Made by a program: the position numbers and the translations under genes. Of a DNA stretch of 64,000 nucleotides, positions 16,000 to 62,963 are shown piece after piece (positions within the stretch are counted from its first letter, which is position 1; each line of letters opens with the position of its first letter). The notes below the pieces were generated by a model that searched no databases, was not told where the DNA came from, and saw nothing but the letters and a program-made list of their open reading frames with translations. Where the stretch lies: the NCBI RefSeq assembly GCF_003574625.1, contig NZ_QNUJ01000003.1, positions 248,001-312,000 of the forward strand. Direction: 5' to 3'. The stretch comes from Shinella zoogloeoides. GTDB taxonomy: Bacteria > Pseudomonadota > Alphaproteobacteria > Rhizobiales > Rhizobiaceae.

Positions 16000-17220
16000 T
16001 CACCGGCTGAGCTTCGTAGCGACGTCGAGGAGCACGTTGGCGCCGGCGACGAGATCGGCCTCGTCGGTATGTTCGGCCGGATTGTGGCTGATGCCGCCCT
16101 TCGACGGTACAAAGATCATCGCCGAAGGGGCGATGCGGGCGATCATCTGCGCATCATGCCCCGCGCCCGATGTCATGCGCCGGCAGCTCAGCTGGCGTCC
16201 CGCCGCCGATGCCTCGATAGCCGTCACGATTTCCGGCGCGAAGGCAACGGGCTGGAAGCGCGCCAGACGCTCCGTCGATATCTCGAAGCCTTCGCCCTGC
16301 AGTTTCTTCAGAAAGGCATCGAGCGCGGTTTCCTGTCCCTTGAGCCTTTCTTCATCGGGATTGCGCAGATCGACCGTGAAGATCGCTGCCGAGGGAATGA
16401 CGTTGATCGCATTGGGCTCGAAGCGGATCGTACCGACCGTCGCGACCGCACCCGGCGTTTCGCGGGCAAGCCGGTCGAGGAAGGCGAGCGTGCGGCCGGC
16501 GGCAACGCCGGCGTCGCGGCGCATCGCCATGGGCGTCGTGCCAGCGTGGTTGGCCATGCCGCCGATGGTGATCCTCTGCCAGGAAATGCCCTGCAGGTTC
16601 TCGACCGCCCCGATCGGAGCTCCTTCCGCCTCGAGGATTGGTCCCTGCTCTATATGGAGTTCGATATAGGCATGCGGCCTGAGGAAGCCCGGTTCGCGCG
16701 TCCCGGCATAGCCGATGCGCGCCAGCTCCACCCCGAGCGTCGTGCCGTCGCTGCCGATGGTGGCGAGCGCATCGTCCGCGCCGAGCCCTCCGGCCGCGAC
16801 CAGGCTGCCCATCATGTCGGGCGCATAGCGCACGCCTTCCTCGTTGGTATAGGCGACGACGGCAAGAGGCCGCGAGGGGCGAAAACCTGCCTGCTGCATC
16901 GCCTCGATCACGGCAAGGCCCGAAAGAACGCCGTAGCAGCCGTCATAGATACCCGCGTCGATCACCGTATCGATATGGGAGCCCATGACGACCGGGTCGC
17001 CGGAGGCGCCCTCCGGCTCCCACAGGCCATGAATGTTGCCGATGCGGTCGATTTCGATGCGGAGGCCGGCTTCCCCGAGCCACGCGCACAGAAGATCCCG
17101 TCCCACCCGGTCGGCATCGGTCGCGGCAAGGCGGCAGAGCCGGCCGGCCTCGTCCCGCCCCGTATCGCCAAGCGCCTTCAGGCGGGCAGTCAGACGGGCG
17201 GCGTCGATGGCGGCGATCAT
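16000..17220 (-). CDS. M20 zinc hydrolase, allantoate/N-carbamoyl amino acid amidohydrolase type
   Basis: A 406-residue member of the hydantoinase/carbamoylase M20 group. Metal ligands appear in GSHIDTVIDAGIYDG (residues about 80-95) and in HIEQGPILE, with the dimer-domain motif MANHAGTTPM. Such enzymes remove a carbamoyl or ureido group from amino acid derivatives. It overlaps the diaminopropionate ammonia-lyase gene by 4 bases (ATGA). The same pairing occurs in E. coli as ygeX-ygeY, which suggests that the hydrolase releases the diamino acid that the lyase then splits. The exact acyl or carbamoyl substrate is not known. Confidence 0.85.
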   Translation of the reverse strand: MIAAIDAARLTARLKALGDTGRDEAGRLCRLAATDADRVGRDLLCAWLGEAGLRIEIDRIGNIHGLWEPEGASGDPVVMGSHIDTVIDAGIYDGCYGVLSGLAVIEAMQQAGFRPSRPLAVVAYTNEEGVRYAPDMMGSLVAAGGLGADDALATIGSDGTTLGVELARIGYAGTREPGFLRPHAYIELHIEQGPILEAEGAPIGAVENLQGISWQRITIGGMANHAGTTPMAMRRDAGVAAGRTLAFLDRLARETPGAVATVGTIRFEPNAINVIPSAAIFTVDLRNPDEERLKGQETALDAFLKKLQGEGFEISTERLARFQPVAFAPEIVTAIEASAAGRQLSCRRMTSGAGHDAQMIARIAPSAMIFVPSKGGISHNPAEHTDEADLVAGANVLLDVATKLSR

Positions 17221-18428
17221 GCAGCGCCTCCGTTGCGGACGGCTTCGGGGCTGCGGCCGACGATCCTCTCGTAGAGGGCTGGGTCGGTCGCGCCTTCCGT
17301 GTTGACGATGAGCACGCGCGCCTTGCTGTCGAGACCGATCCGGGCGGCAAGCGCGGGGTCGCGAAGCGCCGTCAGAAGACCCGCCAGCCCGGCACTTCCG
17401 CTTTCGCCGGCAACGATGGCGGGGTCCTCGCCGACGGGATTGGCGAGGCGGCGCATCGCCTCCGGCGCGACATCCTCCTCGACCGTCATGAAGCCATCCG
17501 CGACCCGCTCGAGGACACGGAAGGCGACCAGCGACGGCTCATAGCATTCCAGCATCGCCATGATGGTCGGCTCTCCCTCTTCCACCTTGACCACATGGCC
17601 CGCGCGGGCGCTCTCATAAATGCTGGCGGCGCGCGCCGGATCGACCACCGTGACATGCGGACGATTATCGCCGAGCGCCATCGCCATATGCCCGCTGACC
17701 GCAGCGGCAAAGCCGCCGACGCCGGCCTGGAGAAAGACATGGGTCGGGGGTTCGGCAAGCGAGGCGAGGGCTTCGCGAACCAATGCGGTATAGCCCTGCG
17801 ACACGAGGCCGGGAGCGTATTCATAGCCGGGCCATGAGGTGTCGGAGAGGATCGTCCAGCCCTCTTCGGTTGCCACGCGCGCGGCTTCGGCAACGGAGAC
17901 GTCGTAATTCCCGTCGACGCGCACCATTTTCGCACCGAAGCGGGCGATGGCCTCGATGCGGGCATCGCTGACGCCGGAATGGACGAAGATCACCGCGCGG
18001 GCGCCCATCAGCGCCGCGCCCTGTGCAACCGACCGGCCGTGATTGCCATCGGTCGCGCAGGCAAAGGTCATGGTCGCGGCGATGGCGCGGACCTCGTCCG
18101 ACATGAGTTCAGCGATGGGGACGGGGCGGCCAAGGTGGCGCTCGGCCTCCTCCTTCACCAGGATCATCAGCGCATAGGCGCCGCCCAGTGCCTTGAAGGA
18201 GCCGAGGCCGAGGCGAAAGCCCTCGTCCTTGACATATAGGGCCCCGATGCCGAGTTCGGCGGCAAGGCCGGGCAGCGTGTGGAGCGGCGTCGCATCGTTG
18301 TTCTCGCGAAGGGCGAGGACCTGCGCCACCCGCCCGGCCGCCGCGATGCCCAGCGTTTCGGCGTCGCGTGCGTCCAGCGGTTGCCGATAACCGGGCAGGG
18401 TGTTCGTCAAATAGGGCAAGGTGGGCAT
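17217..18428 (-). CDS. dpaL: diaminopropionate ammonia-lyase
   Basis: A 403-residue fold-type II PLP enzyme. The Schiff-base lysine is K79 in GSFKALGGAYA. The family-specific acidic residues are present in CATDGNHGRSVA and in SDTSWPGYEYAPG, matching the two catalytic aspartates described for E. coli DAPAL. It converts 2,3-diaminopropionate to pyruvate and two ammonia. It is coupled to the M20 hydrolase downstream and lies 139 bases from an Lrp regulator upstream. An ectoine-type EutB lyase is a less likely reading, because EutB is shorter and threonine dehydratase-like. Confidence 0.85.
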   Translation of the reverse strand: MPTLPYLTNTLPGYRQPLDARDAETLGIAAAGRVAQVLALRENNDATPLHTLPGLAAELGIGALYVKDEGFRLGLGSFKALGGAYALMILVKEEAERHLGRPVPIAELMSDEVRAIAATMTFACATDGNHGRSVAQGAALMGARAVIFVHSGVSDARIEAIARFGAKMVRVDGNYDVSVAEAARVATEEGWTILSDTSWPGYEYAPGLVSQGYTALVREALASLAEPPTHVFLQAGVGGFAAAVSGHMAMALGDNRPHVTVVDPARAASIYESARAGHVVKVEEGEPTIMAMLECYEPSLVAFRVLERVADGFMTVEEDVAPEAMRRLANPVGEDPAIVAGESGSAGLAGLLTALRDPALAARIGLDSKARVLIVNTEGATDPALYERIVGRSPEAVRNGGAA

Positions 18429-18567: not shown

Positions 18568-19056
18568 TCACTCCAGCGGAATGCTCAATCCCACCTTGAC
18601 GCGCTCCATGGAAACGAACGTCCGGAAGCGTTTCACATTGTTGTTGCCGAAAAAGAGCCTTCGCGTCAGCGCCTCGTAATCCGACATCGCGCGCACGATG
18701 ACGATCAGGATGAAATCCGCCTCTCCCGTCACATAATAGCATTGCTGCACCTCCGGCGCGGCGGCGAAGGAGCGTTTGGCGGCGTCGTAAAGCTCTGCGC
18801 GCTCGCTTTCCATCTCCACTTCGACGAAAAGCGTGATCGACCGGTCGACCCTCGCCGGATCGACGAGCGCGACATTGGCCCTGATGACCCCGATCTCCTC
18901 CATGCGCCGGATGCGGCGCTGGACGGCCGGCGCGGAGAGGTGGATCATCTCTGCGATGGTTCGCTGCGGCGTCTTGTTGTCCCGCTGCAGGATGTCGAGG
19001 ATCTTCAGGTCCAGCCGGTCGAGCTCGGCGGAACCGCGTGTCGGCTTCTCGCTCAT
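18568..19056 (-). CDS. Lrp/AsnC-family regulator
   Basis: A 162-residue regulator. An N-terminal helix-turn-helix (LDRLDLKILDILQRDNKTP, then SAPAVQRRIRRMEEIG) precedes a RAM/AsnC ligand domain with the VQQCYYVTGEADFILIV strand. The start at 19056 has AAAGG about 9 bases upstream; the longer frame would add 20 basic residues without a ribosome site. It sits between the dpaL-M20 pair and the doeA-type operon, all on the same strand. Lrp proteins (DoeX/AsnR) are a known fixture of ectoine catabolic loci, so it may respond to a diamino acid intermediate. Confidence 0.87.
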   Translation of the reverse strand: MSEKPTRGSAELDRLDLKILDILQRDNKTPQRTIAEMIHLSAPAVQRRIRRMEEIGVIRANVALVDPARVDRSITLFVEVEMESERAELYDAAKRSFAAAPEVQQCYYVTGEADFILIVIVRAMSDYEALTRRLFFGNNNVKRFRTFVSMERVKVGLSIPLE

Positions 19057-19168
19057 CTTCAGCGCCTTTCGCAACGAAATTGCGTGGCTGCGCCGGATTT
19101 CCGGCGCAGCTTTCACATGGTGCCGAGCATTATTTCATCTGCCGCTGCAAGTCATCCTGCGCGCGAGG

Positions 19169-20365
19169 CTATTCCAGTTGCCGGAGGAACCTGAGTGCAG
19201 CCGCAGACAGGGTCATCGCACCCTTGGGAAGGGCGGTTTCATCCACGCGGAACTTCGGGTGATGCAGCGGATAGATTGCCTCCATCACCTCGTTGCGGAT
19301 GCCGAGGCGGAAATAGACCGACGGGCATTTCTCGCTGTAGAAGGCGAAGTCGTCCGCCGCGGTCCAGCCGGGCGCGTTGAGCACGTTGTCCCGCCCGACG
19401 ACCTCGGCTCCCGCCTGCTGGACGATGGCGACCATTTCGGGCGCGTTGACGACCGGCGGCTCGCCGCGCTGGATTGTCACCGCGACGCTTGCATCATGGG
19501 TGGCGGCGACGCCTTCGAGGATCTGCCGCAGCCGGCGCCAGGCCTTCTGTCGTGTCTCCTCGTGGCCGCTGCGGATCGTGCCCTTCAGGCGCACTTCGGG
19601 GGCGATCACGTTATAAGCGCCGCCGCCCTCTATGCCGGTGACGGAAACCACCAGCGGGTCGTAGGGATCGATCTCGCGCGAAACGATCTTCTGCAATTCC
19701 GTCACCATGGAACAGGCGACCGCGATCGCATCCACTCCGTCGGAGGGCTTGGCGGCATGGGCGGAATTGCCGGTAACGACGACGTCGAAGATATCGCAGG
19801 CGAGCGTGTAGGGACCGGCGCCGACAGCGATCTGTCCGGCGGGCGTATAGGGATCGACATGGATGCCGATTGCGGCGTCCACGTCATCGAGAAGCCCCTC
19901 CTCGATCACCCGCCGGCCGCCGAGCGGCTCGGCTTCCTCGGCGGGCTGGAAGATCAGGCGCACCGTGCCGCTGAACGACGATCTCTGCCGGTCGAGCAGG
20001 ACCGCGGCGGCGTAGCCCATCGCAGCATGCGCGTCGTGCCCGCAGGCATGCATCACGCCCGGTCGCCCGGAGGCGAAGGGCACGCCCGATGCCTCGGTGA
20101 TCGGCAGCGCATCGATATCGGCCCGGATCACCACCTTGCGGTTCGAAGGCCCGGCCGTTCCGGCGATATCCACGGCAAGGCCGAAGCCCGCGACGGGCCG
20201 GACATTCTCCAGCCCCGCCGCCTCGAGCGCCTGCTTCAGATAGGCCTGCGTCTCGCGCTCCTCGTTCGACAGTTCCGGATTGCGATGGAGGTGGCGCCGG
20301 ATGTCGATCATCCCGCGTTCCAGCGACGGCTCCATCGCGGCGGTGTCGGGGTCAGGCCTTGACAT
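19169..20365 (-). CDS. M20D amidohydrolase, candidate N-acetyl-diaminobutyrate deacetylase
   Basis: A 398-residue hippurate hydrolase/IAA-amino acid hydrolase-type enzyme. Metal-binding elements are visible in GVMHACGHDAHAAMG (Cys and His ligands, residues about 105-119), in the FQPAEEAEPLGG loop and in the C-terminal LHHPKF. It overlaps the ectoine hydrolase-like gene by 14 bases and would act immediately after it in a pathway. The ectoine hydrolase product is N-acetyl-2,4-diaminobutyrate, so deacetylation is the natural assignment (a DoeB2-like role). That is inference; classical EutE/DoeB deacetylases belong to another family. Confidence 0.8.
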   Translation of the reverse strand: MSRPDPDTAAMEPSLERGMIDIRRHLHRNPELSNEERETQAYLKQALEAAGLENVRPVAGFGLAVDIAGTAGPSNRKVVIRADIDALPITEASGVPFASGRPGVMHACGHDAHAAMGYAAAVLLDRQRSSFSGTVRLIFQPAEEAEPLGGRRVIEEGLLDDVDAAIGIHVDPYTPAGQIAVGAGPYTLACDIFDVVVTGNSAHAAKPSDGVDAIAVACSMVTELQKIVSREIDPYDPLVVSVTGIEGGGAYNVIAPEVRLKGTIRSGHEETRQKAWRRLRQILEGVAATHDASVAVTIQRGEPPVVNAPEMVAIVQQAGAEVVGRDNVLNAPGWTAADDFAFYSEKCPSVYFRLGIRNEVMEAIYPLHHPKFRVDETALPKGAMTLSAAALRFLRQLE

Positions 20366-50882: not shown

Positions 50883-52133
50883 TCAGGCGTAGCGGGCGAT
50901 CGCGAGGTCCGTTGCGTCGATGTCCGGCTTCTTGCCCGAGACGAGGTCGGCGATGACGCGGGCGGAGCCGGAGCTCATCGTCCAGCCGAGCGTGCCGTGG
51001 CCGGTATTGAGGAAGAGGCCGGCGATCTTCGTCGGACCGATGACCGGCGTTCCGTCCGGCGTCATCGGGCGCAGGCCGGACCAGAAGCTGGCCTTGGAAA
51101 TGTCGCCGCCGGGGAAGAGATCGGTGACGGAGTGCTGCAGCGTGAGGCGACGCGGCTCGCCGAGATCGTTGGTATAGCCAGAGATTTCCGCCATGCCGCC
51201 GACGCGGATGCGGTCGCCGAGGCGGGTGATGGCGATCTTGAAGGTCTCGTCCATGACGGTCGATTCCGGCGCGCGCGAGGCATCGACGATCGGGATCGTC
51301 AGCGAGTAGCCCTTGACCGGATAGACCGGCAGGTGGATGTCGTGCGGCTTGACGAGGAGCGGCGAGAAGCTGCCGAGCGCCACGACGACGGCGTCGGCCT
51401 CCAGCCTGCCATGCGCGGTGATGACGCCGCGCACACGGCCGCCCTCCACATCGAGCCCGCGGATGATGCTGCCATAGTTGAAGCGCACGCCGAGCGCCTC
51501 GGCCTTCGCGGCCAGCGCATTGGAGAACTTGAAGCAGTCGCCGGTCTCGTCCTTGGGCGTCAGCAGGCCGCCCACGATCTTCTCGCGCACGTGCCTCAGC
51601 GCCGGCTCGACGCGGATGCAGCCCTCGGGATCGAGCACTTCATAGGGAATGCCGTCGGCGGCGAGCGCCTTGACGTCCTTGGCCGAGGCGTCGAGCTGCG
51701 CCTGGGTACGGAAGAGCTGCAAGGTGCCCTGCATGCGCTCGTCATAGGCGATGCCCGTTTCCTCGCGCAGCGCGGCGATGGAGATGCGGCTGTAATCGGC
51801 GAGGCGCAGCATGCGGCTCTTGTTGATGGCGTAGCGGCCGGAGGTGCAGTTGCGGAGCATCTTCACCATCCAGGACAGCATGGCGCCATCGACCTTGGGG
51901 CGAAGGATCAGTGGGGCATGCTCCATGAACAGCCATTTCAGCGCCTTCATCGGAATGCCGGGCGCGGCCCAGGGCGAGCAATAGCCGAAGGAGACCTCGC
52001 CGGCATTGGCGAAACTGGTCTCCAGCGCCGGGCCGGGCTGGCGGTCGACGACCGTGACCTCATGCCCCGCCTTGGCAAGCTGGTAGGCCGACGTGACGCC
52101 GACGATGCCGGCGCCGAGAACGATGACTTTCAT
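50883..52133 (-). CDS. dadA: D-amino acid dehydrogenase small subunit
   Basis: A 416-residue membrane-associated flavoprotein, the usual DadA length. The FAD motif is [22 protein letters not shown] (visible from residue 2), followed by [22 protein letters not shown], which is typical of DadA. The C-terminus has [14 protein letters not shown]. It oxidises D-alanine and other D-amino acids to oxo acids. The start at 52133 has TGAGGA upstream; a longer frame would add 14 residues. It lies 82 bases after alr on the same strand, with the Lrp regulator divergent beyond. Confidence 0.95.
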
Positions 52134-52215
52134 GGTATCCTCATTGGAAAGAAAAGCTTTGTCTTTTGTTTTCAAGGCAGTCGCGGAAACGGCGGATGTT
52201 TTCCGCGAACCTGCC

Positions 52216-53349
52216 CTAGCGGTATTGCCGCTCGTATCGGTGGCCGAGACTGGTCAGGATCTCGTAGGCAATGGTGCCGGAATCGCGCGCCACGTCCTCC
52301 AGCGTCTGGTGCGGGCCCAGCACTTCCACGAGGCTGCCGAGCTTGAGGCGTCCTTCCGGCAGGGCGGAGACGTCAATGGTGATGCTGTCCATCGAGACGC
52401 GGCCGACGATGGGCAGGCGTACGCCATCGCAGAAGACGGCGCCGCGGTCCGAAAGGCTGCGCAGCATGCCGTCGGCATAGCCGGCCGCGATGGTGGCAAG
52501 GCGGGTGGGGCCAGTCGTGACATGCGTGCCGCTGTAGCCGACGCGCGTGCCGGCGGGCACGGTGCGCGTCTGCACCACGGCGATGTCGAGACGCACGACG
52601 GGCTCCATCGGATTGGCGCGTCCTGCCGTCGGCGCGCCGCCGTAAAGCGCGATGCCGGGACGGGCGACCACGCCGTGATAGGTCTTGCCGAGGAAGACAC
52701 CGCCGGAATTGGCGAAGCAGACGGGAAACTGCGGGAAGTCCGCTGCGACGCGCTCCATCTCGGCAAGCTGGTCGCCGTTCTGCTCGCTGTCCGCATCGTC
52801 GGCGGAGGCAAGGTGGCTCATGACGAAGAGAATGTCGATTCCGCCTTCAGACTTCACCAGTTCGGCAAGCGCGGCCCGCTCTTCCGGCGGCACGCCGAGG
52901 CGCGACATGCCGGTGTCGAATTGCAGGACCGCCGGCAGCCTGCGGGCGAGCATCCGGGCGGCATCCGCCCATTGCTGCCACTGCGCCAGCGAGTTGATGA
53001 CCGGCACGATACCGTCCCGCGCGGCGGGGAATTCATTGCCGGGCTGCAGGCCGTTCAGCACGAAGACGGTCGCGTCGGCGGCAAGCAACGGACGCAGGGC
53101 GAGGGCCTCGACGAATTGCGCGACGAAGAAATCGCGGCAGCCATGGGCATAGAGCCTTTCGGCGACCCGGGCGGCGCCGAGTCCATAGGCATCGGCCTTG
53201 ACGACGGCGGCGGCACGTGCCGGCGCGACCTCGGCACAGAGCCGTTCATAGTTGCGGGCAAGGGCCGCCAGATCGATGGTCAGGTAGCCCGATGCGCCAC
53301 CGGCGCCGGCCGCTTCGCTCTGCCTGTCTGTTCTCGTCACGCCGTCCAT
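52216..53349 (-). CDS. dadX: alanine racemase, catabolic
   Basis: A 377-residue PLP racemase. The Schiff-base lysine is in [14 protein letters not shown] (K50). The second catalytic residue, Tyr, is in [11 protein letters not shown]. The start has GGGAGG 6 bases upstream. Its place beside dadA and a divergent Lrp regulator identifies it as the inducible catabolic racemase rather than the cell-wall Alr; the two cannot be separated by sequence alone. It feeds D-alanine to DadA. Confidence 0.9.
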
Positions 53350-53474
53350 GTCCAGCCTCCCGCATTACGCGCAGCCTAGTGAAACGATCGTGAAATTGCC
53401 GACGAAACAGCGCTTGATTGTTGTGTGCGGCTATGATTTTTGAAAGAAACGACGACGGTTTGGAATGATATGCA
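53350..53474. promoter_or_regulatory. divergent promoter region of dadX-dadA and the Lrp regulator
   Basis: A 125-base AT-richer gap. On the plus strand TTGAAA (53440-53445) precedes AATGAT (53464-53469) with 18-base spacing, a plausible promoter for the regulator, though its transcript leader would be very short. No clear box is seen for the minus direction. Lrp proteins bind degenerate AT-rich sites, which this gap could supply. Confidence 0.35.
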
Positions 53475-53948
53475 ATGACCGCTCTCGATGCCATAGACCG
53501 CAACATCCTGCGCCTTCTGCGCCTCGATGCACGCATGAGCAATGCGCGGCTGGCGGCCGAGGTGGGCCTGTCTCCCTCGGCCTGTCTCAGGCGCATCAAG
53601 CTGATGGAACAGGCGGGCGTCATCCGCGGCTATACCGCGCTGGTGGATGCCTCGAATGCGGAATCGACCATCGCGGTCATCATCAACATCACGCTGGAAC
53701 GCCAGACGGAGGACCACCTCGACCGTTTCGAGGCGGCCGTGCGAAAACACCCGGAAATCCGCGAATGCTTCCTGATGACGGGCGGCTCGGATTACCTGCT
53801 GCGCGTCGAGGTCGCCAATGCCGGCGAATTCGAGCGCATCCACAAGGAAATCCTCTCGGCAATGCCCGGCGTCTCGCGGATCCATTCGAGCTTCGCGATC
53901 CGCAACGTGCTGGCGACGAAGCCGAGAGGACGGACGAAGCGCGCCTGA
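53475..53948 (+). CDS. dadR: Lrp/AsnC-family regulator of the dad locus
   Basis: A 157-residue regulator. The helix-turn-helix is in NARLAAEVGLSPSACLRRIKLMEQAG (residues about 25-50), and the RAM domain contains IRECFLMTGGSDYLLRVEV. It is divergent from dadX-dadA, the arrangement of the dadR activator in rhizobia and pseudomonads, which responds to alanine. It converges with the decarboxylase gene after a 9-base gap. Confidence 0.85.
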   Translation: MTALDAIDRNILRLLRLDARMSNARLAAEVGLSPSACLRRIKLMEQAGVIRGYTALVDASNAESTIAVIINITLERQTEDHLDRFEAAVRKHPEIRECFLMTGGSDYLLRVEVANAGEFERIHKEILSAMPGVSRIHSSFAIRNVLATKPRGRTKRA

Positions 53949-53957
53949 CGCTGTCGC

Positions 53958-55364
53958 CTACGGCAATGCGCGTGCGACCTCGGTTATCACCTTGAAGGCC
54001 GTATCGGCATCGTCGCGCGTCATCTCGAACTGGCCCGCCTGGAAGCGGATGGCGATGCGCCCGTCGACGCGGGTCTGCGTGAGATAGATGCGGCCGTCGT
54101 CGTTGATGGCGTTGACGAGGGCGATGTTGTGCCGGTCGGCACCTCCCGCGCCCTTGTGACGGAAGGAGAAGAGCGACAGGACCGGCTGGCTGACGATCTC
54201 GAAATCGGCCTCGGCGGCCAGCCGTGCGGCAAGCTCCGCCGACCATTCGACATGGTTACGGATCATCGCGCGCAGCCCTTCCAGCCCGTGATAGCGCATC
54301 AGGAACCAGAGCTTAAGCGCGCGGAAGCGGCGGCCGAGCGGCACGGACCATTCGGAATAGTTGACGATGCCGTCGTGGCCGTGGGTTTTCAGATATTCCG
54401 GCTGGATGGCCAGGGTGCGCACCTGATCCTCGGGGCTGCGGATGAACTGCACCGAGCAGTCGAAATTGGCGCCGAGCCATTTATGCGGGTTGAAGACAAT
54501 GGAATCGGCCTCCTCTATGCCCTCCCAGAGGGTACGGAATTCCGGGCAGATCATGGCCGAACCCGCCCAGGCGGCATCGACATGGAGGTAGAGGCCATGC
54601 GCCTTCACCACCGCCGCCACCTCGGCGATGGGATCGCAGGCGCCGATGGAGGTTCCTCCCGTGCAGGCGATGACGCCAGCGGGAATGTGGCCGGCCGCAA
54701 GGTCCGCCCTGATCGCGGCATCCAGCGCTTGCGGGTCCATGCCGTTCAGCGCTCCCTTGGTGGGAATGCGCACGAGGTTCGCTTCCCCGATGCCGGCAAT
54801 CCAGATCGCCCGGTCGATGGAGGTATGCACCTGCCCGGAGGCATAGACGCGAACGGCGCCGTGCGCCGCCAGCCCCTCGCTGTTGCCCTTCCAGCCGAGC
54901 GCCTTTTCCCGCATCACCAGCACGGCGGCGAGCGTCGCGGTGGAGGCGGAATCCTGGATGACGCCGGAAAAGCCGTCCGGCAGGCCGAGCGCCTTGCGCA
55001 GCCAGTCGACGACGCGCGTTTCCAGTTCCGTCGCCGCCGGCGAAGTCTGCCAGAGCATGCACTGCGCGGCGACGGCGGTGACGAGGTAATCGGCGATCAC
55101 CGAGACCGGCGCGGCATTGGCCGGGAAATAGGCGAAGAAGCGCGGATGCTGCCAATGGGTGATGCCATCGGGGATGATGCGCTCGAAATCGGCGAAGATG
55201 GTCTCCATCGTCTCGCCGGTTTCCGGGGCGGCATCGGAAATCTGCCGGATGATGTCGCCGGGCTTCGTCTGCGCCCGCACGGGTCGGTCGCGCAGCCCTG
55301 CACGGTAGTCGGCGCCCCAGTCGGCGACGGTTCGCGACCATTGGCGGAATTCTTCGCTGTCCAT
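53958..55364 (-). CDS. group II PLP-dependent amino acid decarboxylase
   Basis: A 468-residue enzyme of the aromatic-L-amino-acid/glutamate decarboxylase group. The PLP lysine is in NPHKWLGANFDCS (about residue 295), with the upstream HVDAAWAGSA carrying the Asp that contacts the pyridine nitrogen. GVIQDSASTATLAAVLV is near residue 130. The start at 55364 has AAAGGGAGAG upstream. Substrates of relatives are Dopa, tryptophan, tyrosine or phenylalanine; I cannot choose. It is divergent from the YqaA-like gene. Confidence 0.87.
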   Translation of the reverse strand: MDSEEFRQWSRTVADWGADYRAGLRDRPVRAQTKPGDIIRQISDAAPETGETMETIFADFERIIPDGITHWQHPRFFAYFPANAAPVSVIADYLVTAVAAQCMLWQTSPAATELETRVVDWLRKALGLPDGFSGVIQDSASTATLAAVLVMREKALGWKGNSEGLAAHGAVRVYASGQVHTSIDRAIWIAGIGEANLVRIPTKGALNGMDPQALDAAIRADLAAGHIPAGVIACTGGTSIGACDPIAEVAAVVKAHGLYLHVDAAWAGSAMICPEFRTLWEGIEEADSIVFNPHKWLGANFDCSVQFIRSPEDQVRTLAIQPEYLKTHGHDGIVNYSEWSVPLGRRFRALKLWFLMRYHGLEGLRAMIRNHVEWSAELAARLAAEADFEIVSQPVLSLFSFRHKGAGGADRHNIALVNAINDDGRIYLTQTRVDGRIAIRFQAGQFEMTRDDADTAFKVITEVARALP

Positions 55365-55534
55365 GTCCTCTCCCTTTATGCCTATCGTTCTTCTCGGCGC
55401 TCGGGCGATGATTTGCAATGCCTGCGGCGGCGATGCGGGCAGGGGCGCGGGTTGAGTTCACGGGGCGAAGCATGTACCAAGCCGGAGGCTGCATCCCGGC
55501 CATTCCCCATCCTGTTCGGCAGACACGAAATCCC

Positions 55535-56125
55535 ATGTTACGAAAACTCTACGCCTGGACCCTCTCGCTTGCCGGACGCAAGGCCGCGGAAGCCTGGCTT
55601 GCGCTTATCGCCTTCGTCGAAAGCTCGGTCTTCCTGGTGCCGGCGGATGTCCTTTTCCTGCCCATGGCGCTCGCCCGGCCGGAGCGGGCCTACCGCTATG
55701 CCTTCGTCGCCACGGCGGCATCGGTGGCCGGCGGCATTGCCGGTTGGATGCTCGGCTATTATGCCTATGAGGCGGTCGCCAAGCCCGTGCTCGAGTTCTA
55801 CGGCAAGCTGGAGGCCTTCGAGCAGCTGAAATCCCATGTCACCGAGGGGCAGCTCAACCTTCTCCTCGTCACGTCGGGCCTTGCGCACCTGCCGCCGATC
55901 AAGATCGTGACGATCCTTGCAGGCGTCGCGCATATCAAGCTCTGGCATTTCGTGCTGTCGGCGATCGTCGCGCGCGGTTTTCGCTTCTATCTCCTCGCCT
56001 TCCTGCTGCGCCGCTACGGCGAACCGATCCAGGCCTTCGTGGAAAAGCGCCTCGGGCTCATCCTCGGCGCCGTGGCCGTCGGCCTCATCGTGCTTTACGT
56101 CGCCTATCACCTGCTGGCCGGCTGA
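55535..56125 (+). CDS. YqaA/DedA-like VTT-domain membrane protein
   Basis: A 196-residue integral membrane protein. The VTT/SNARE-associated hallmark is the segment WLALIAFVESSVFLVPADVLFLPMAL near residue 20 and the re-entrant loop LAHLPPIKIVTILAGVAHIKLWHF near residue 115. Relatives transport or flip lipids. The start at 55535 has a weak ribosome site; upstream in-frame ATGs lack a membrane-protein-like sequence. Its 3' end overlaps the phosphopantetheinyl transferase gene by 19 bases in convergent orientation. Confidence 0.8.
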   Translation: MLRKLYAWTLSLAGRKAAEAWLALIAFVESSVFLVPADVLFLPMALARPERAYRYAFVATAASVAGGIAGWMLGYYAYEAVAKPVLEFYGKLEAFEQLKSHVTEGQLNLLLVTSGLAHLPPIKIVTILAGVAHIKLWHFVLSAIVARGFRFYLLAFLLRRYGEPIQAFVEKRLGLILGAVAVGLIVLYVAYHLLAG

Positions 56126-56757
56126 TCCTCCGCGACGGCAAGGACGACGATGCGGGGCAGGAGGCAGAAGGAGAGCCGCATCCTGCGGCCGCGCGCCGTC
56201 ATGGCCTCGCGGCGCGCAAGATCGACGCCGATGTGCTCATAACCGAGGATTTCCTCGTCCAGCGGATAGGTGGCCTTATAGACCGCCTCCTTCGCGCTGA
56301 AGAGAAGGCGTGCCGCAAGGCGGGGATCGATGCCCCCAAGGACATCGCCGGGCATCACGGCCAGCGCGGCGATCTCGTCCGGTAGCGGCTCGGCCGGCTC
56401 GACATCGATGCCGAGCGAGGCAATATCGGCCTTGCGGGCGACGGCGGCGACGGCCATCTCGTCGTCATGGGCGAGCGAACCTGTGAAACCTGTCGGCCAG
56501 AGCGGCTCCCCCGCAGGACCGCGTCCGATTGCAGCGGAAGTCATGCCTTCAACCGCCAGCAGACCTCGCGCAAGCGCACGGGCTGCGCCGCTTGAACGCC
56601 GGGCCGCGAGCCGGCGGGCCGGAAGGGCGGCAGCCTCTTCCGGCAGGAGAAGAGCCTCGTCGCCCGCCCGGATAAGCCGGCAGCCGAGCCGCACCGCCGG
56701 CGGGGCCAGCCGCTCCATCTGCGCCAGCAGCGCGGTCTCGGCCGCGCTGTCGCTCAT
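56107..56757 (-). CDS. 4'-phosphopantetheinyl transferase, EntD/Sfp type
   Basis: A 216-residue transferase. Mg-binding motifs GIDVEPAEPLP (residues about 113-123) and FSAKEAVYKATYP (about 148-160) are intact, and GFTGSLAHDDEM is the EntD-type motif before them. It moves the phosphopantetheine arm from CoA to a carrier serine. Its start overlaps the stop of the NRPS-like gene by 4 bases, so it is made with that enzyme and very probably activates S582 of its carrier domain. Confidence 0.92.
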   Translation of the reverse strand: MSDSAAETALLAQMERLAPPAVRLGCRLIRAGDEALLLPEEAAALPARRLAARRSSGAARALARGLLAVEGMTSAAIGRGPAGEPLWPTGFTGSLAHDDEMAVAAVARKADIASLGIDVEPAEPLPDEIAALAVMPGDVLGGIDPRLAARLLFSAKEAVYKATYPLDEEILGYEHIGVDLARREAMTARGRRMRLSFCLLPRIVVLAVAEDQPASR

Positions 56758-59700
56758 TCGGCCAGGACCGGTCTGGCGAAGGCGTGGAGCTTGGCCGGAT
56801 TGCCGCGCCAGATCGAGTGCGGTTCGAGGATCTCGCCCTTCATCACGAAGCAGTCGACATCGGCGATCGAGCCTTCGCCCATCGTCACGCCGTAATGGAC
56901 GAAGGCGGAGGGGCTGAGCGTGCAGCCGTTGCCGATGCGGATATAATCCGACTTGAAGGCGCCTTCCTCCAGCGAATGGGCCTGGATGACGCAGCCTTCG
57001 TTGAGCGTGGCGTCGTCGCCGATCTCCACCAGCGAGCGTTCCGTCAGGTTGGCCCCGCCGTCATAGACGCGCCTGCCGACCTTGACGCCCAGCGCACGCA
57101 GGATCATCGGGCGGAACGGCGTGCCGGCGAAGAGCCGCACGATGGGCGAATCCGACAGTTTCCAGTGCCGCTCGTGGCGCCAGAAATCGACGTCGTAGAT
57201 GGTGGTCATCTGCGGCCGGAGCCTGCGGAAGCGAAGGCTCGCCCATTCCATCAGGATATAGAAGGGAATGGTGACGGCCGCCGTCAGGACGACGGCGACG
57301 AAGAGCGCCACCTGTGCCCATTCCGTATAGTAGTTGAGCGCCCGGTCCCAGATCGCCAGCGTCACGAACAGCATCGTCCACTGCACGGCGATGAACATCA
57401 GCGCGGTTACGAGGTTATGCCGGTTCTTGTGCGGCAGGCGGGCGCGGCGGTCCTCGTCGCTGACACCCTGGATCAGTTCCTTGTCGCGCTTGACCATGCG
57501 CGGGATCTCGAACGGCGGGGAGCCGAGGAGGCCGACATTCTCGCGCAGCGGCCCGTCGATGGGCACCATGACCTTGGTGCCGAGAAGGACGTTCTCCCCC
57601 GTCCGCCCGTCGGGCGGATAGAAGATGTTGTTGCCGAAATAGTTGCGCTCGCCGACCTTCGTGTGCGCCAGCCGGAAGGCGGAGGCCGACTTGTGCACGT
57701 TGATCATGTAGAGGCCGTCGGAGACCATGGTGCCGGTCCCGATCTCGCAGAACAGCGGATTGTCCTGCTGTTGGTTGCTGCCGAAATTCGAGCCGGTCTG
57801 CACCACCTTGTTGAGGTTCCAGCCGAGCGCCCGGATATAGTGGACGACGGCGGAGCTGTCGCCGAAGATCAGGTTGAGCAGGCGTGCATTGGTGCCGGCC
57901 TCGACGATGGACTGGAGCCAGAAATGGAAGCCGTACATCCGATAGGTACGGCCGGGCTTCAGGACGAGGCTGAACAGCCGCGGCAGCACCAGGGCGACGA
58001 AGGCGAGGGCCGCAATGAGGGCGATGAGCGTGACCGTCGTGCCGATGGCGACGATGCCGATCGATTCCTGGTAGTCGTCGCTGACATTCTGCCAGTAGCT
58101 GTGGAACCACAGCGGGAATGGCGTGACGACGGCAAAGAGCGTGATGAGCTGCACGGCCTCGTAAAGGATGCGCCGCGTCTTGGAGAGCGTGACGACCGGC
58201 ACCTTGCAATAATCCGCATTTGTCGGGACGGCGGGCGAGCCGTGCCAGTGCGCGTCATCGGGAACATGCTGCCCGCGCTGGAGCGAGGAGGCATGGCCAA
58301 GCTGGGCGCGGTCGCCAATGGATGTGTCGATGTCGATCGCGCAGCCGACGCCGACGAAGGCGTCGCGGCCAATGGAGATCGGGCCGGTATGGATGTAACC
58401 GGCCTGCGCCCGGTAGCCGAGAATCATCGATTCCTTGCGCAGGATCGAGCTCTCGCCGATGGAGATGAGATCGGTGCAGACCGGGATCGTGCGACATTCG
58501 ATGGTGGTGCTGCGCCCGAGCCGCGCGCCGAGCAGGCGCAGATAGAGGCTATAGAGCGGGCTGCCGCGGAAGAGGACGACCGGCGCAGTGCGGATCAGCG
58601 TCTTGACCACCCAGAAGCGATAATAGCGAAGCCCCCAGATCGGGAAGCTCTCGGCCTTCCATCGACCGACCAGCAGCCACTTCATGGCGACGGCAAAGCC
58701 GGACATGCCGAAGAACACGGCAGCCGACAGGATGGCGCAACGCAGATAGAGCCGAACCGGATCGTCGAGCATGTCGTAGACCCAGTTGAGGCCGTAGTTC
58801 AGCATCCACAGGCCGAAATAGCTGTAGAGGCCGTAGAAGGCGAGCTGCGCCGCGCCGCTGGTCCAGTAGGCGAGGTTCGAAGCGCGGTGGGTTAGGCAGG
58901 GCTCTTCCACGGCCGCAACCTCTTCCTCGGGGCCGCGCAGGTGCCGCGCGAGGCCGGCCACCGTCGGATGCATGTAGATGTCGCGCATCGAGGTGGTCGC
59001 CCACTCCTTGCGCGTGCGCAGCTTCGCGCAGAAGCGGGCCATCAGCAGCGAGTTGGCACCGAGATCGTCGAAGAAATGATCCTCGGCGTAGATGTCGTCC
59101 ATCTTCAGCACGTCGCGCAGCGCTTCCGTGAGGAAGCGCTCGTCGTCGGTGGACGGCAGGATTTCCTTACGCTCGGTCCCGAGGCGAAGGCTCATGGGCT
59201 TCGGCAGTTTGCGCGTATCGACCTTGTCGGACACGGTCATCGGCAGGGCCGGAAGCTCCTCCAGGAAGGAGGGCACCATGTAGTCGGGCAGGCGGCGGCG
59301 CAGTTCCCTGCCGAGGTCGGCGCGGGCAAGCGTGTCCGTGCCGGATTTCAGCGCATAGTAGCCGACCAGCTCGACGCGGCCGGGCTCGATCTCCCAGGTC
59401 GTGACGGCCGCCTGCGCGATGCCGGGCTGGTCGAGCAGCACGGCCTCGATCTCGCCGAGCTCGATGCGGTAGCCGCGGATCTTCACCTGCGTGTCGATGC
59501 GGCCGTGATATTCGATCTCGCCATCCGCATTGATGCGGCCGAGGTCGCCGGTGCGGTAGATGCGCTGCGAGGGATTGTTCGGCAGGCCGATGAAATCGGG
59601 GATGAACTTCTGCGCCGTCAGGTCCGGCCGGTTGAGATAGCCGACCGCGACGCCGATGCCGGCGATGCCGATTTCACCAAGCTCGCCCGGCGCCGTCAGT

Positions 59701-60794
59701 TGCGGCGCCTCGGCATCGAGGATGACGATGGAATAGGTCGGCAGCGGCGCGCCGATCGTCACGGGGCGTTCGGGCGTCAGGTAGCCCATCGTCGCCGTCA
59801 CGGTCGCCTCGGTCGGGCCATAGGTGTTGAGGATCTGTCGGCCCGGCTTCGACCAGCGCGTGACGAGGTTGTGCGGGCAGGCCTCGCCGCCGACGAGGAT
59901 GGCACGCAAGCTCGGCACGTCGCTCTCGATGGAGGAAAGCAGCGTCGGCGAGCAGGCCATGCAGGTGATGTCGTTGGCGCGCAGGAAATCCGCAAGTTCC
60001 TCGCCGACCAGCGTCATGCGGCCCGGCGCGGGAACGACGGTCGCGCCGGCGGCGAACGGCACCCAGATCTCCTCGGTGGAGAAGTCGAAGGCGATGGTCA
60101 TGCCCTGGTAGACGCGGTCGCCCGGGCGGTAGCCATAGGCATCGGCCGCGACGCGGACGAAGTTGCAGATGCTCTGGTGGCGCACCGCCACGCCCTTCGG
60201 CCGGCCGGTCGTGCCGGAGGTATAGAGGATGTAGCAGATGTCGTCTTCGGAGAAGCCGAGTTCGAGCGGCGTACCCGGGTGCCGGGCGGCTTCCGGGCAA
60301 TCGGCGGCGATCACCACATGAGGGACGGAAAGTCCTGCGGCGCGCGCGGCATAGCCGGCGATGGTGACGACGAGGCTGACGCCCGCATCCTCGACGATGA
60401 GCGACATGCGCTCCTCGGGGAAGGCCGGGGCGAGCGGCACGAAGGCCGCGCCCGCCTTCATGACGGCGAGGATGGCGATATAGGTCTCGGCGGAGCGGTC
60501 GAGCAGCAGGGCCACCCGGTCGCCGGGCTTGACGCCGCGCCCGGCGAGCAGGCGCGCGAAGCGGTTCGCGGCGGCGTCCATCTCGCGATAGGTCCAGGTG
60601 CGGCCGGAATCGAGCACGGCCGGCGCGTCCCCAAAGGTTGCGGCAAGGCCCTCGAAGACGCGGGAAAGCCGCTCTTCCGGCTGGCCGGCGCGCGGCGAAT
60701 CGGGGCCGCACAGGATCTGCGGCATCGGGCCGCTCTCGGTCGTGTCCATCACGCCCCGGCTGAGGCCGCGCAAATGGGTGCCTGCGTCGTTCAT
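56754..60794 (-). CDS. NRPS-like enzyme with epsilon-poly-lysine synthetase architecture
   Basis: A 1346-residue protein. Residues about 45-535 are an adenylation domain with A3 (YTSGTTGRPKG, 191-201), A4 (AFDFSTEEIW), A5 (NTYGPTEAT) and A10-like DKVDTRKL. A carrier domain follows, with its pantetheine serine at S582 (DLGANSLLMARF). Six membrane segments at about 648-668, 683-708, 880-898, 916-945, 1128-1148 and 1160-1182 surround three soluble domains rich in hexapeptide-like turns. There is no condensation or thioesterase domain. This is the layout of Streptomyces Pls, which polymerises lysine. Manual alignment suggests a basic amino acid. ATG at 60794 has AGGA 8 bases upstream. Confidence 0.9.
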   Translation of the reverse strand: MNDAGTHLRGLSRGVMDTTESGPMPQILCGPDSPRAGQPEERLSRVFEGLAATFGDAPAVLDSGRTWTYREMDAAANRFARLLAGRGVKPGDRVALLLDRSAETYIAILAVMKAGAAFVPLAPAFPEERMSLIVEDAGVSLVVTIAGYAARAAGLSVPHVVIAADCPEAARHPGTPLELGFSEDDICYILYTSGTTGRPKGVAVRHQSICNFVRVAADAYGYRPGDRVYQGMTIAFDFSTEEIWVPFAAGATVVPAPGRMTLVGEELADFLRANDITCMACSPTLLSSIESDVPSLRAILVGGEACPHNLVTRWSKPGRQILNTYGPTEATVTATMGYLTPERPVTIGAPLPTYSIVILDAEAPQLTAPGELGEIGIAGIGVAVGYLNRPDLTAQKFIPDFIGLPNNPSQRIYRTGDLGRINADGEIEYHGRIDTQVKIRGYRIELGEIEAVLLDQPGIAQAAVTTWEIEPGRVELVGYYALKSGTDTLARADLGRELRRRLPDYMVPSFLEELPALPMTVSDKVDTRKLPKPMSLRLGTERKEILPSTDDERFLTEALRDVLKMDDIYAEDHFFDDLGANSLLMARFCAKLRTRKEWATTSMRDIYMHPTVAGLARHLRGPEEEVAAVEEPCLTHRASNLAYWTSGAAQLAFYGLYSYFGLWMLNYGLNWVYDMLDDPVRLYLRCAILSAAVFFGMSGFAVAMKWLLVGRWKAESFPIWGLRYYRFWVVKTLIRTAPVVLFRGSPLYSLYLRLLGARLGRSTTIECRTIPVCTDLISIGESSILRKESMILGYRAQAGYIHTGPISIGRDAFVGVGCAIDIDTSIGDRAQLGHASSLQRGQHVPDDAHWHGSPAVPTNADYCKVPVVTLSKTRRILYEAVQLITLFAVVTPFPLWFHSYWQNVSDDYQESIGIVAIGTTVTLIALIAALAFVALVLPRLFSLVLKPGRTYRMYGFHFWLQSIVEAGTNARLLNLIFGDSSAVVHYIRALGWNLNKVVQTGSNFGSNQQQDNPLFCEIGTGTMVSDGLYMINVHKSASAFRLAHTKVGERNYFGNNIFYPPDGRTGENVLLGTKVMVPIDGPLRENVGLLGSPPFEIPRMVKRDKELIQGVSDEDRRARLPHKNRHNLVTALMFIAVQWTMLFVTLAIWDRALNYYTEWAQVALFVAVVLTAAVTIPFYILMEWASLRFRRLRPQMTTIYDVDFWRHERHWKLSDSPIVRLFAGTPFRPMILRALGVKVGRRVYDGGANLTERSLVEIGDDATLNEGCVIQAHSLEEGAFKSDYIRIGNGCTLSPSAFVHYGVTMGEGSIADVDCFVMKGEILEPHSIWRGNPAKLHAFARPVLAE

Positions 60795-61023: not shown

Positions 61024-62280
61024 TCAGGCCCGAAGGGCCCGCGCCGGGCTGAGGCGGAGGGCGGAAACGGCTGGCACGAGCGAGACCAGCACCGCCAGGA
61101 ACAGGAACCAGAGGGCGAGGGGAACGTCCTCGCGCGCGAACTCCACGGGCATGCGGACGGCGGTCGTAGCGGCCAGCGAGGCGGAGATCGCCTCGGCGGC
61201 GGCATAGCCGACGGCAATGCCGAGCGCAAAGCCGGCAAGGAAGAGCACGAACAGTTCGCCCCAGACGATGGCCAGCACCGAACGCCGCGGCGCGCCGAAG
61301 GCCCGCAGCGCCCCGATCTGCCGCTGGCGCGCCCCGACATGCATGACAGTGACGAGCAGGATTGCCGCGATGACGATCACCTGCGTGCCGATGGCGATGG
61401 CGAGGAGGAGGCTGCGTGCATCGCCGAGCGTCGCGTAAAGCCGCGTCAGCACTTCGGCGGGAAAGACGGCGAGCGTCGTCTCGCCGCGATATTCCTGCCG
61501 CAGGCGATAGGCGTCGGCGACCGTTTTCGGCTTGACGAGAACGGCTGGAATTCCCGGTGTTGCGGCATCGAAATGCTCATCGAGGCCCGCATTCGCATCG
61601 ACATGGGCTTCGTGGTCGTGATCATGATCCTCGTGGGCATCTCCTTCGTGATCGTGATCCTCATGGCCGGCCTTTTCCTCCATGCCATGCAACTGCCAGA
61701 CCGCGCGGATCGGCACGAGGATCGCCCGGTCCCAGGCCGTGCCCGTCGGCGCCATCCGGCCGGTCACGGTATAGGCGATTTCCGTATGGGTATGGCCGCC
61801 TTCGTCGGCGGCGCCGTGCATCGGCTTGATCTCCGCGCCAAGCCGCTTGGGCACGTCCGCGCCGACCACGGCCTCGCCGAGGCGGGTGAAAAGCGCGCCC
61901 TCGGCAAGCGTGGGCGAAAGAGCGGAGACGAGCGTCGTCGTCGTGCCGACCACCGGATATCCGTCCGCCGAATCGCCGAAGCCGACCGGCGCGGCGAAAT
62001 CAACGCGCGGATCGTCCGATAGCTTGGCGAGCACGCCGCCCGACATCAGCGGCAGGGGCGAGGGCTGAAGGAAGACGGCCGAAAGGGCAAGCTGGGTCTC
62101 GCTGCCGGCGGCTCCAACCAGAAGGTCGAATTTTTCCGCCGCCCGCGCGCTGCCGAGCCGCACGGCGCGCTCCTGCAGCGTGACGGTAACACTGAGCGCG
62201 ACGGAAAGCGCGATCAGCACCACGACGGCAAAGGCGCCCGCCTTGAAGCGGCGAAGGTCGGCGAGGATGAAACGGATCAT
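61024..62280 (-). CDS. FtsX/MacB-type ABC permease with a histidine-rich loop
   Basis: A 418-residue membrane protein. TM1 is at about 14-34; three more segments lie at about 292-315, 335-360 and 388-408, the MacB/LolC topology. The large periplasmic loop includes a metal-binding-looking stretch at residues 198-226 with nine histidines interspersed with Asp and Glu. It overlaps the ATPase gene by 4 bases. Such permeases export or extract lipoproteins or envelope ligands rather than import solutes. The His cluster suggests zinc or another metal as cargo or regulator. Confidence 0.87.
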   Translation of the reverse strand: MIRFILADLRRFKAGAFAVVVLIALSVALSVTVTLQERAVRLGSARAAEKFDLLVGAAGSETQLALSAVFLQPSPLPLMSGGVLAKLSDDPRVDFAAPVGFGDSADGYPVVGTTTTLVSALSPTLAEGALFTRLGEAVVGADVPKRLGAEIKPMHGAADEGGHTHTEIAYTVTGRMAPTGTAWDRAILVPIRAVWQLHGMEEKAGHEDHDHEGDAHEDHDHDHEAHVDANAGLDEHFDAATPGIPAVLVKPKTVADAYRLRQEYRGETTLAVFPAEVLTRLYATLGDARSLLLAIAIGTQVIVIAAILLVTVMHVGARQRQIGALRAFGAPRRSVLAIVWGELFVLFLAGFALGIAVGYAAAEAISASLAATTAVRMPVEFAREDVPLALWFLFLAVLVSLVPAVSALRLSPARALRA

Positions 62281-62963
62281 GCTGCAAGCGCCTCCGCGCT
62301 GTCCTCGACGATCCGGCCGCCGGCAAGGCCGATGCGCCGGTCGAGCCGCTCCGTCAGGGCGGGATCGTGGGTGACGGCGATCAGCGTCGCCCCTTCCGCC
62401 CCGGCAAGCTCGACGAGGAGGTCTGCGACGGCCTCACCCGTGCGCCCGTCGAGACTGGCGGTCGGTTCGTCGGCGACGATGACGCCGGGTCTTGCCAAGA
62501 GCGCCCGCGCCACGGCGACACGCTGCATCTCGCCGCGCGACAGGGTCTCTATGGCCTGCTGCGGTCGCGCGATGCCGACCGTGTCGAGGAGCCGGAGCGC
62601 CCGTTCGCGCTCGGCCGGCTCCAGTCGCCGCGAAAGGCGGATCGGCAGCACGACATTCTCCAGCGCCGAAAGGCCGGGAAAGAGATGGAAATCCTGCATG
62701 ACGAGGCCGATATGCGCTGCGCGGAACGCATCGCGCCGGCCCGTCGGAAGACGCGTGATGTCCGTTCCGCCCCAGGAGACCGTTCCGCCGGTCACGCGCT
62801 CGAGGCCGGTGATCGCATTCACCAGCGTGCTCTTGCCCGAGCCGGACGCCCCGGTGACCGCAAGCTGTCCGCCGGCCGGAACGTGAAGGCGGCCGATGGC
62901 GAGGACCGGCGTTTCGAGGCCGGAAAAGCGCATGGTGAGATCGGCAGTGTCGAGCGAAAGCAT
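62277..62963 (-). CDS. ABC transporter ATP-binding protein, LolD/MacB type
   Basis: A 228-residue ATPase. Walker A is GASGSGKSTLVNAITG (about 35-50), the signature is LSRGEMQRVAVARAL (Arg replaces the usual second Gly) and Walker B is VIVADEPTASLDG. It partners the FtsX-type permease downstream with a 4-base overlap. It lies 3 bases after the secreted-protein gene, so all three are one operon. Confidence 0.92.
   Translation of the reverse strand: MLSLDTADLTMRFSGLETPVLAIGRLHVPAGGQLAVTGASGSGKSTLVNAITGLERVTGGTVSWGGTDITRLPTGRRDAFRAAHIGLVMQDFHLFPGLSALENVVLPIRLSRRLEPAERERALRLLDTVGIARPQQAIETLSRGEMQRVAVARALLARPGVIVADEPTASLDGRTGEAVADLLVELAGAEGATLIAVTHDPALTERLDRRIGLAGGRIVEDSAEALAA

Follow-up and report, generated by a model that had tools for sequence, protein, structure and literature searches.

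The window analysed in this study is a 64,000-nucleotide stretch of the Shinella zoogloeoides contig NZ_QNUJ01000003.1 (positions 248,001 to 312,000), and its minus strand carries at 56754..60794 an intact, uninterrupted open reading frame (ORF) of 1346 residues. We found that this gene is a well-formed, genuine member of a known family of cationic homopoly(amino acid) synthetases, the Pls/PosA family. The protein matches the Pfam models AMP-binding (residues 51-387), AMP-binding_C (448-524) and PP-binding (554-619) above their cut-offs and has a single adenylation (A) domain (residues 51-534, 59193..60644) and a single carrier (T) domain (residues 554-619, 58938..59135), in which Ser582 of the motif DDLGANS is the phosphopantetheine site. 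A Hexapep match falls slightly short of its Pfam cut-off. Pfam searches at E values up to 0.001 detected no condensation (C) or thioesterase (TE) domain in the protein, and an ordinary non-ribosomal peptide synthetase was rejected on this ground. The C-terminal polymerisation domain (residues 647-1334, 56793..58856) matches the NCBIfam model TIGR02353, 'Pls/PosA family non-ribosomal peptide synthetase', with 847.8 bits against a cut-off of 423.1 (E 6.2e-255), and RefSeq gives the same name to the homologue of Shinella sp. H4-D48. Because the match is far above its cut-off and the name already stands in RefSeq for a Shinella homologue, we treat the gene as a member of a known family and not as a new system. 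The preliminary description, made from the sequence alone, had proposed a novel system; this was too strong, since the family is already named in public records and a Gram-negative product, the delta-poly-L-ornithine of PosA, was published in 2023 (PMC10522769). The Pls-like relation that it had proposed is borne out by the TIGR02353 match and by the retained Asp and Glu of the substrate pocket (D237 and E241). Our literature search found no paper that names TIGR02353 or a 'PosA family'. The true start of the synthetase may be Met24 (60725), the position that RefSeq gives to one Shinella homologue; the upstream position is GenBank's choice for another.

An AlphaFold2 model of residues 640-1346, built from an alignment of 38 sequences (mean predicted local distance difference test score 91.1, predicted template modelling score 0.90), contains six long helices arranged as three pairs, with a run of short strands after each pair. 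Helices 1-2 span residues 641-673 and 679-709 (58668..58874), helices 3-4 span 872-901, with a break at 891, and 908-941 (57972..58181), and helices 5-6 span 1113-1154 and 1161-1186 (57237..57458), all on the minus strand. The three soluble beta-helices each bear a short motif near their end: C1 (about residues 756-871, 58182..58529) has HGSPA, C2 (about 991-1101, 57492..57824) has GSPPF and C3 (about 1236-1339, 56778..57089) has GNPAK. The six membrane segments, named beforehand as a point on which the description could fail, are thus present in a confident model, and together with the Pfam results the predicted layout of an A domain, a carrier and six segments around three soluble domains, with no C or TE domain, stands. 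A Kyte-Doolittle scan at a threshold of 1.25 recovered five of the six helices, missing the first, and also flagged two stretches of the soluble adenylation domain. In the published description of the PosA model, six helices likewise carry three left-handed beta-helices of five turns each (PMC10522769).

The fold of the soluble domains is that of hexapeptide acyltransferases. Foldseek placed a maltose O-acetyltransferase first among solved structures (E 7.7e-05, TM by target 0.56), and the 60 profile matches shown, of 95 at E up to 1, are by name nearly all acetyltransferases or gamma-carbonic-anhydrase-like chains that align over short stretches; neither the profile nor the Foldseek search found a solved structure spanning the whole C-terminal domain. 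The possibility that this half is merely an ordinary acyltransferase unrelated to Pls, raised beforehand as a refutation, was rejected by the TIGR02353 match, the model and the Foldseek result, since the domain as a whole belongs to the Pls/PosA family. Of the window residues, 48 are conserved in 97% or more of 93 aligned sequences from both main subfamilies; the last third, C3, has 19 of them. His1273 (QAHSLEEG, 56976..56978), Gln1271, Glu1276 and Tyr1301 are invariant in all 93. In profile alignments His1273 falls on a His of the acetyltransferases 8vr6 and 3ftt, but on an Asp of 3ixc. The aligned His of such acetyltransferases is, we presume, the catalytic residue. The invariance of His1273 and its alignment therefore suggest that C3 is likely the condensation site, with His1273 as the likely general base and C1 and C2 as its partners in a fused pseudo-trimer.

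The synthetase gene has a partner. A 4'-phosphopantetheinyl transferase (PPTase) of 216 residues is encoded on the same strand at 56107..56757, and its start overlaps the synthetase stop by four bases (ATGA); its nearest NCBIfam models are PptT and Npt, both below cut-off. The synthetase is carried by 5 of 21 Shinella genomes and the PPTase adjoins it in all five, as in H4-D48, where RefSeq calls the adjoining gene a '4'-phosphopantetheinyl transferase superfamily protein'. In the 16 synthetase-free Shinella genomes we found one PF01648 match (13 genomes) or two (3 genomes). The PPTase gene thus belongs with the synthetase gene. The best named match in a plasmid collection is the S. zoogloeoides plasmid p1_Teo12 (99.3% protein identity), and the next six are also from Shinella. 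At a wider scale, TIGR02353 is found above its cut-off in 9 of 289 sampled genomes of the class, the window genome included, and in 9 of 61 genomes of its own and related species, where the further matches are weak and hexapeptide-like. The gene also occurs in Mesorhizobium, Phyllobacterium, Aureimonas and other Rhizobiales; the literature searched gave no described product for these carriers.

The pocket of the adenylation domain was read by alignment as DFEALGTVTK (D237, F238, E241, A280, L300, G302, T324, V332, T333 and K524). As a control, the same alignment gave DMEHNGTVSK for the Acinetobacter PosA gene, identical to the published code. The window pocket differs from this PosA code at positions 2, 4 and 5, equals it at positions 1, 3, 6, 7, 8 and 10, and is similar at position 9; the Thr residues at positions 7 and 9 correspond to T304 and S313 of PosA. 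For PosA it has been reported that mutation of D217 or E221 abolishes activity and that T304A and S313A weaken it, and the same source proposes a rule for position 2 in which Phe goes with diaminopropionate (DAP) or L-2,4-diaminobutyrate (DAB), Met with ornithine and Ala with lysine (PMC10522769). The window has Phe238 at this position, as expected for a poly-DAB or poly-DAP synthetase, and lacks the Ala of Pls, whose pocket we read by eye from an alignment with 7wew as D A E S I G T V V. Judged from these residues, the polar part of the pocket (Glu, Thr, Thr) resembles that of the poly-ornithine synthetase, so in the window pocket polar contacts of the ornithine type (E241, T324, T333) stand beside a Phe238 of the DAP/DAB type, and the two cues disagree. 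The code DFEALGTVTK may already stand among the many codes in Supplementary Table 2 of PMC10522769.

We next compared the loci of relatives, taken as the best 80 of at least 578 from a scan of genome contigs, with views that in most cases extend about 4 kb upstream of the synthetase and 6 kb downstream. Proteins of 1290 residues or fewer were not coded, and the tree and the conservation counts exclude six rows in which the C-domain match was short, as well as L047 (code DGSFVATTDK, with no Glu at position 3 and a partial, below-cut-off C-terminal match), L064 (DLEDIGSVVK, at a contig end) and L120 (represented by an incorrect ORF), all three of which were also omitted from the code counts. A code could be read in 63 of the 68 rows compared (the five others being L097, L099, L117, L118, which has EctB, and L135), and the Asp and Glu at positions 1 and 3 are kept in all 63. 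Window-type codes account for 35 of the 68 rows, the window included: DFEALGTVTK (27), DFEAMGTVTK (3), DFEALGSVTK (2), and DFEALGTITK, DFECMGTVTK and DFECLGSVTK (one each). Another 18 rows have sister codes of the form DFEC/DYEC..S..VTK, and L090 (DFEALSAVTK), whose contig begins just upstream, is in neither group.

The two groups differ in the genes around them. A PPTase is present at 31 of the 35 window-type loci (the four without it are L070, L083, which is at a contig end, L084 and L164), and 27 of the 35 have a GNAT acetyltransferase downstream of the synthetase (for example at 12094-12558 in L164 and 12005-12490 in L165). Loci with all three genes have them in the order synthetase, GNAT, PPTase; Aureimonas is annotated in this way. 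The closest solved relatives of the GNAT are spermine/spermidine acetyltransferases (E 3.5e-14), and NCBIfam models match it only far below their cut-offs. It was not found at threshold in eight rows, namely the window, L039-L042, L065, which has a weaker GNAT-like match (29%), L074 and L100; nor did a search of the window genome at E 1e-5, run without a positive control, find one. EctB or Dat lies in 12 of the 18 sister-code loci but in none of the 35 window-type loci, which also lack SbnB. The diaminobutyrate transaminase is annotated as such at the Skermanella locus of the sister-code group. An aspartate kinase is found at the sister-code locus L111, and five more loci match it; in the Streptoalloteichus poly-Dab cluster an aspartate kinase and a transaminase are reported to supply DAB (PMC8225329). 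A crude motif search without a positive control found no DapF-like racemase in 19 sister-code loci. In a tree of the C-terminal domains (93 rows, made by a quick method, with long branches flagged by the program), the 35 window-type rows form one clade with a support of 91, nested in a Pseudomonadota group in which EctB linkage prevails among the outer members.

A third group, from Streptomyces, Pseudonocardia and relatives, has TIGR02353 proteins that match the window over about 720-880 residues and carry no recognisable adenylation domain. These are apparently split synthetases, perhaps for diaminopropionate. Among the 80 scan loci SbnB occurs in 30 and SbnA in 14, all outside the window-type and sister-code groups, and SbnB-linked loci of the third group include L095, L098, L101, L103, L106-L109 and L112 in Streptomyces and relatives. 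Two single loci were also observed. In an order-level relative (L044, G047:C96), two adjoining Pls-like ORFs of 1116 and 823 residues lie by SbnB (16545-17648) and SbnA (18586-19260). In an alphaproteobacterium (L057, G111:C2:562146-564230), a TIGR02353 domain lies inside an open frame of 3474 residues, which may be a fusion or no more than a long frame.

Precursor genes need not be neighbours of the synthetase, as the DAP genes of Streptomyces albulus are reported to illustrate (PMC4668381), and we therefore gave genome-wide counts more weight than neighbourhoods. Dat, SbnB, EctB and SbnA are all absent above cut-off from the window genome and from five other carriers (G001, G008, G019, G028 and G033), so that neither a DAB transaminase, at the locus or in the genome, nor the SbnA and SbnB pair for DAP synthesis was found for the window. 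In 19 further carriers SbnB is never above cut-off and EctB is below it in 12, with a best score of 237 bits (against 361 for the Dat-type enzyme of L111 under this model). In total, 18 of the 25 carriers have neither EctB nor SbnB above cut-off, the Dat and SbnA models having been run on six of the 25. Six EctB-type and four SbnA-type comparison genomes all have their gene, which is no independent evidence because they were picked for having it in the locus. DAB or DAP supply by known routes is thus not a general companion of the rhizobial branch.

From these observations we tentatively favour, at slightly less than an even chance, the reading that the window encodes a synthetase of cationic homopoly(amino acids) together with an activating PPTase of its own, the monomer being most likely a diamine from primary metabolism (L-ornithine in the first place) and less likely DAB or DAP. 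Ornithine or lysine is preferred because the known DAB/DAP routes are no general companion of the branch, and lysine is placed behind because of Phe238. The mechanism that we infer for the window synthetase, and with it the activity, monomer, linkage, role of His1273 and any biological role, would run as follows. The PPTase would load the carrier at Ser582, and the adenylation domain would activate one diamino acid, with Asp237 holding the alpha-amine and Glu241 the side-chain amine, and pass it to the carrier. The membrane-anchored pseudo-trimer of beta-helices would then link monomers via their side-chain amine, using His1273 (third helix) as the likely base, and a short isopeptide polycation, a cationic homopolymer, would be released without a thioesterase. 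Adenylation, carrier loading and iterative joining in the C-terminal domain are carried over here because they are described for relatives.

The argument for ornithine is a negative one that depends on one evolutionary change, and we put it forward as the favoured choice with modest confidence. Several points weigh against it. Under the published position-2 rule Phe238 points to DAP or DAB, as in the PDAP and PDAB synthetases (PMC10522769), and reading the substrate from the pocket volume was tried and was not decisive (side-chain volumes of 878 for the window, 835 for PosA, 800 for the Pls code and 872-950 for EctB-linked codes). The nearest outgroups in the tree are mostly EctB-linked, so ancestry points the same way; moreover, the altered pocket and the missing EctB coincide in a single clade, which leaves the association without a replicate. 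EctB is present in 7 of the 19 further carriers, for which genome completeness is not given, curated cut-offs may miss an odd transaminase, and in Streptomyces albulus PD-1 the DAP genes are reported to lie away from the synthetase (PMC4668381). The same enzyme could accordingly use DAB, or diaminopropionate, obtained by an unrecognised transaminase or by uptake. The window genome does hold a transaminase that scores 273 bits on the Dat model, but matches to this model at E 1e-60 or better occur in 20 of 20 genomes of the genus, of which only four carry the synthetase. With the known enzymes missing from the window genome and EctB from every window-type locus, we consider a DAB or DAP monomer rather unlikely.

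Two other products were weighed. Lysine would need no special pathway, and the Gly and Thr at positions 6 and 7 are those of the Pls pocket as read by eye; against an epsilon-poly-L-lysine synthetase, which we find the least probable of these products, stand the Phe where Pls has Ala and the report that PosA, even with Met at position 2, prefers ornithine more than 160-fold over lysine (PMC10522769). A maker of dipeptides or amides, for instance one that ligates a diamino acid to a polyamine to give a small product finished by the GNAT of related operons, would fit the spermine/spermidine-acetyltransferase-like gene in most window-type loci, and the literature searched gave no polymer of this branch. 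The GNAT is missing from the window and was not detected in its genome, though, and the characterised members are reported to make polymers of one diamino acid (PMC10522769), so that this too seems improbable. A possible but doubtful history is that the rhizobial branch is a distinct polycation system, whose ancestor would have made poly-DAB and then turned to a diamine from primary metabolism, probably ornithine. In the pocket, Cys would have given way to Ala, Ser to Gly and Val/Ala to Thr, the DAB transaminase would have disappeared, and the synthetase, a spermidine-acetyltransferase-like GNAT and a private PPTase would have come together in an operon, the GNAT capping or detoxifying the polymer; Shinella would have kept the polymer and dropped the GNAT.

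Other genes surround the pair in the window. An ABC ATPase and an FtsX-type permease lie on the same strand at 61024-62963, about 230 bases upstream of the synthetase start, and are not beside the synthetase in two other annotated Shinella replicons. A PLP-dependent (pyridoxal phosphate) decarboxylase at 53958-55418, near an alr/dadA/lrp block, shows a weak likeness to the diaminobutyrate decarboxylase RhbB (167 bits, cut-off 900), and we found no link between it and the synthetase. A functional link to the decarboxylase, alanine racemase, DadA and Lrp genes (50883-55418) or to the ABC exporter (61024-62963) was dropped, because nothing equivalent to these neighbours adjoins the synthetase in three further Shinella loci (L039-L041); L039 has generic ABC ATPase matches only. 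Of these three loci, two retain the VTT/YqaA gene found at 55418 in the window.

Among known systems, PosA, the delta-poly-L-ornithine synthetase of the Gram-negative Acinetobacter baumannii (PMC10522769), is like the window enzyme in its A-T-six-helix/three-beta-helix layout, its D, E, T and S/T pocket residues and its Gram-negative host, and no precursor gene is among the five features viewed around it. PosA differs in sequence (about 31% identity), in Met, His and Asn at positions 2, 4 and 5 where the window has Phe, Ala and Leu, and in having no PPTase within the 8.4 kb viewed; in the tree it sits on a long branch within the other main subfamily. The EctB-linked homologues, considered here alongside the poly-Dab synthetase PddA (PMC8225329), share the main subfamily of the window and D, F/Y and E at positions 1-3, whereas their codes are of the DFEC/DYEC..S..VTK type and their loci have a diaminobutyrate transaminase and in some cases an aspartate kinase, both absent from the window locus. 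Pls, the epsilon-poly-L-lysine synthetase of Streptomyces albulus (adenylation domain 7wew), whose product is described as a food preservative (PMC8117764), has the same layout and family and the same Gly and Thr at positions 6 and 7, but Ala in place of Phe at position 2; the main subfamily of the window also includes a Geodermatophilus homologue that has the Pls code. Hexapeptide acyltransferases of the maltose/galactoside O-acetyltransferase type have the fold of the soluble domains, whereas the window protein fuses three copies in one chain between membrane helices and serves them by a carrier domain. Few monomers are known for the Pls/PosA enzymes, and this comparison yields three testable monomer logics in one family (SbnB-linked, EctB-linked and unlinked) and puts a one-residue rule for monomer size to the test, with the monomer and the GNAT of the rhizobial branch as the points that deserve work.

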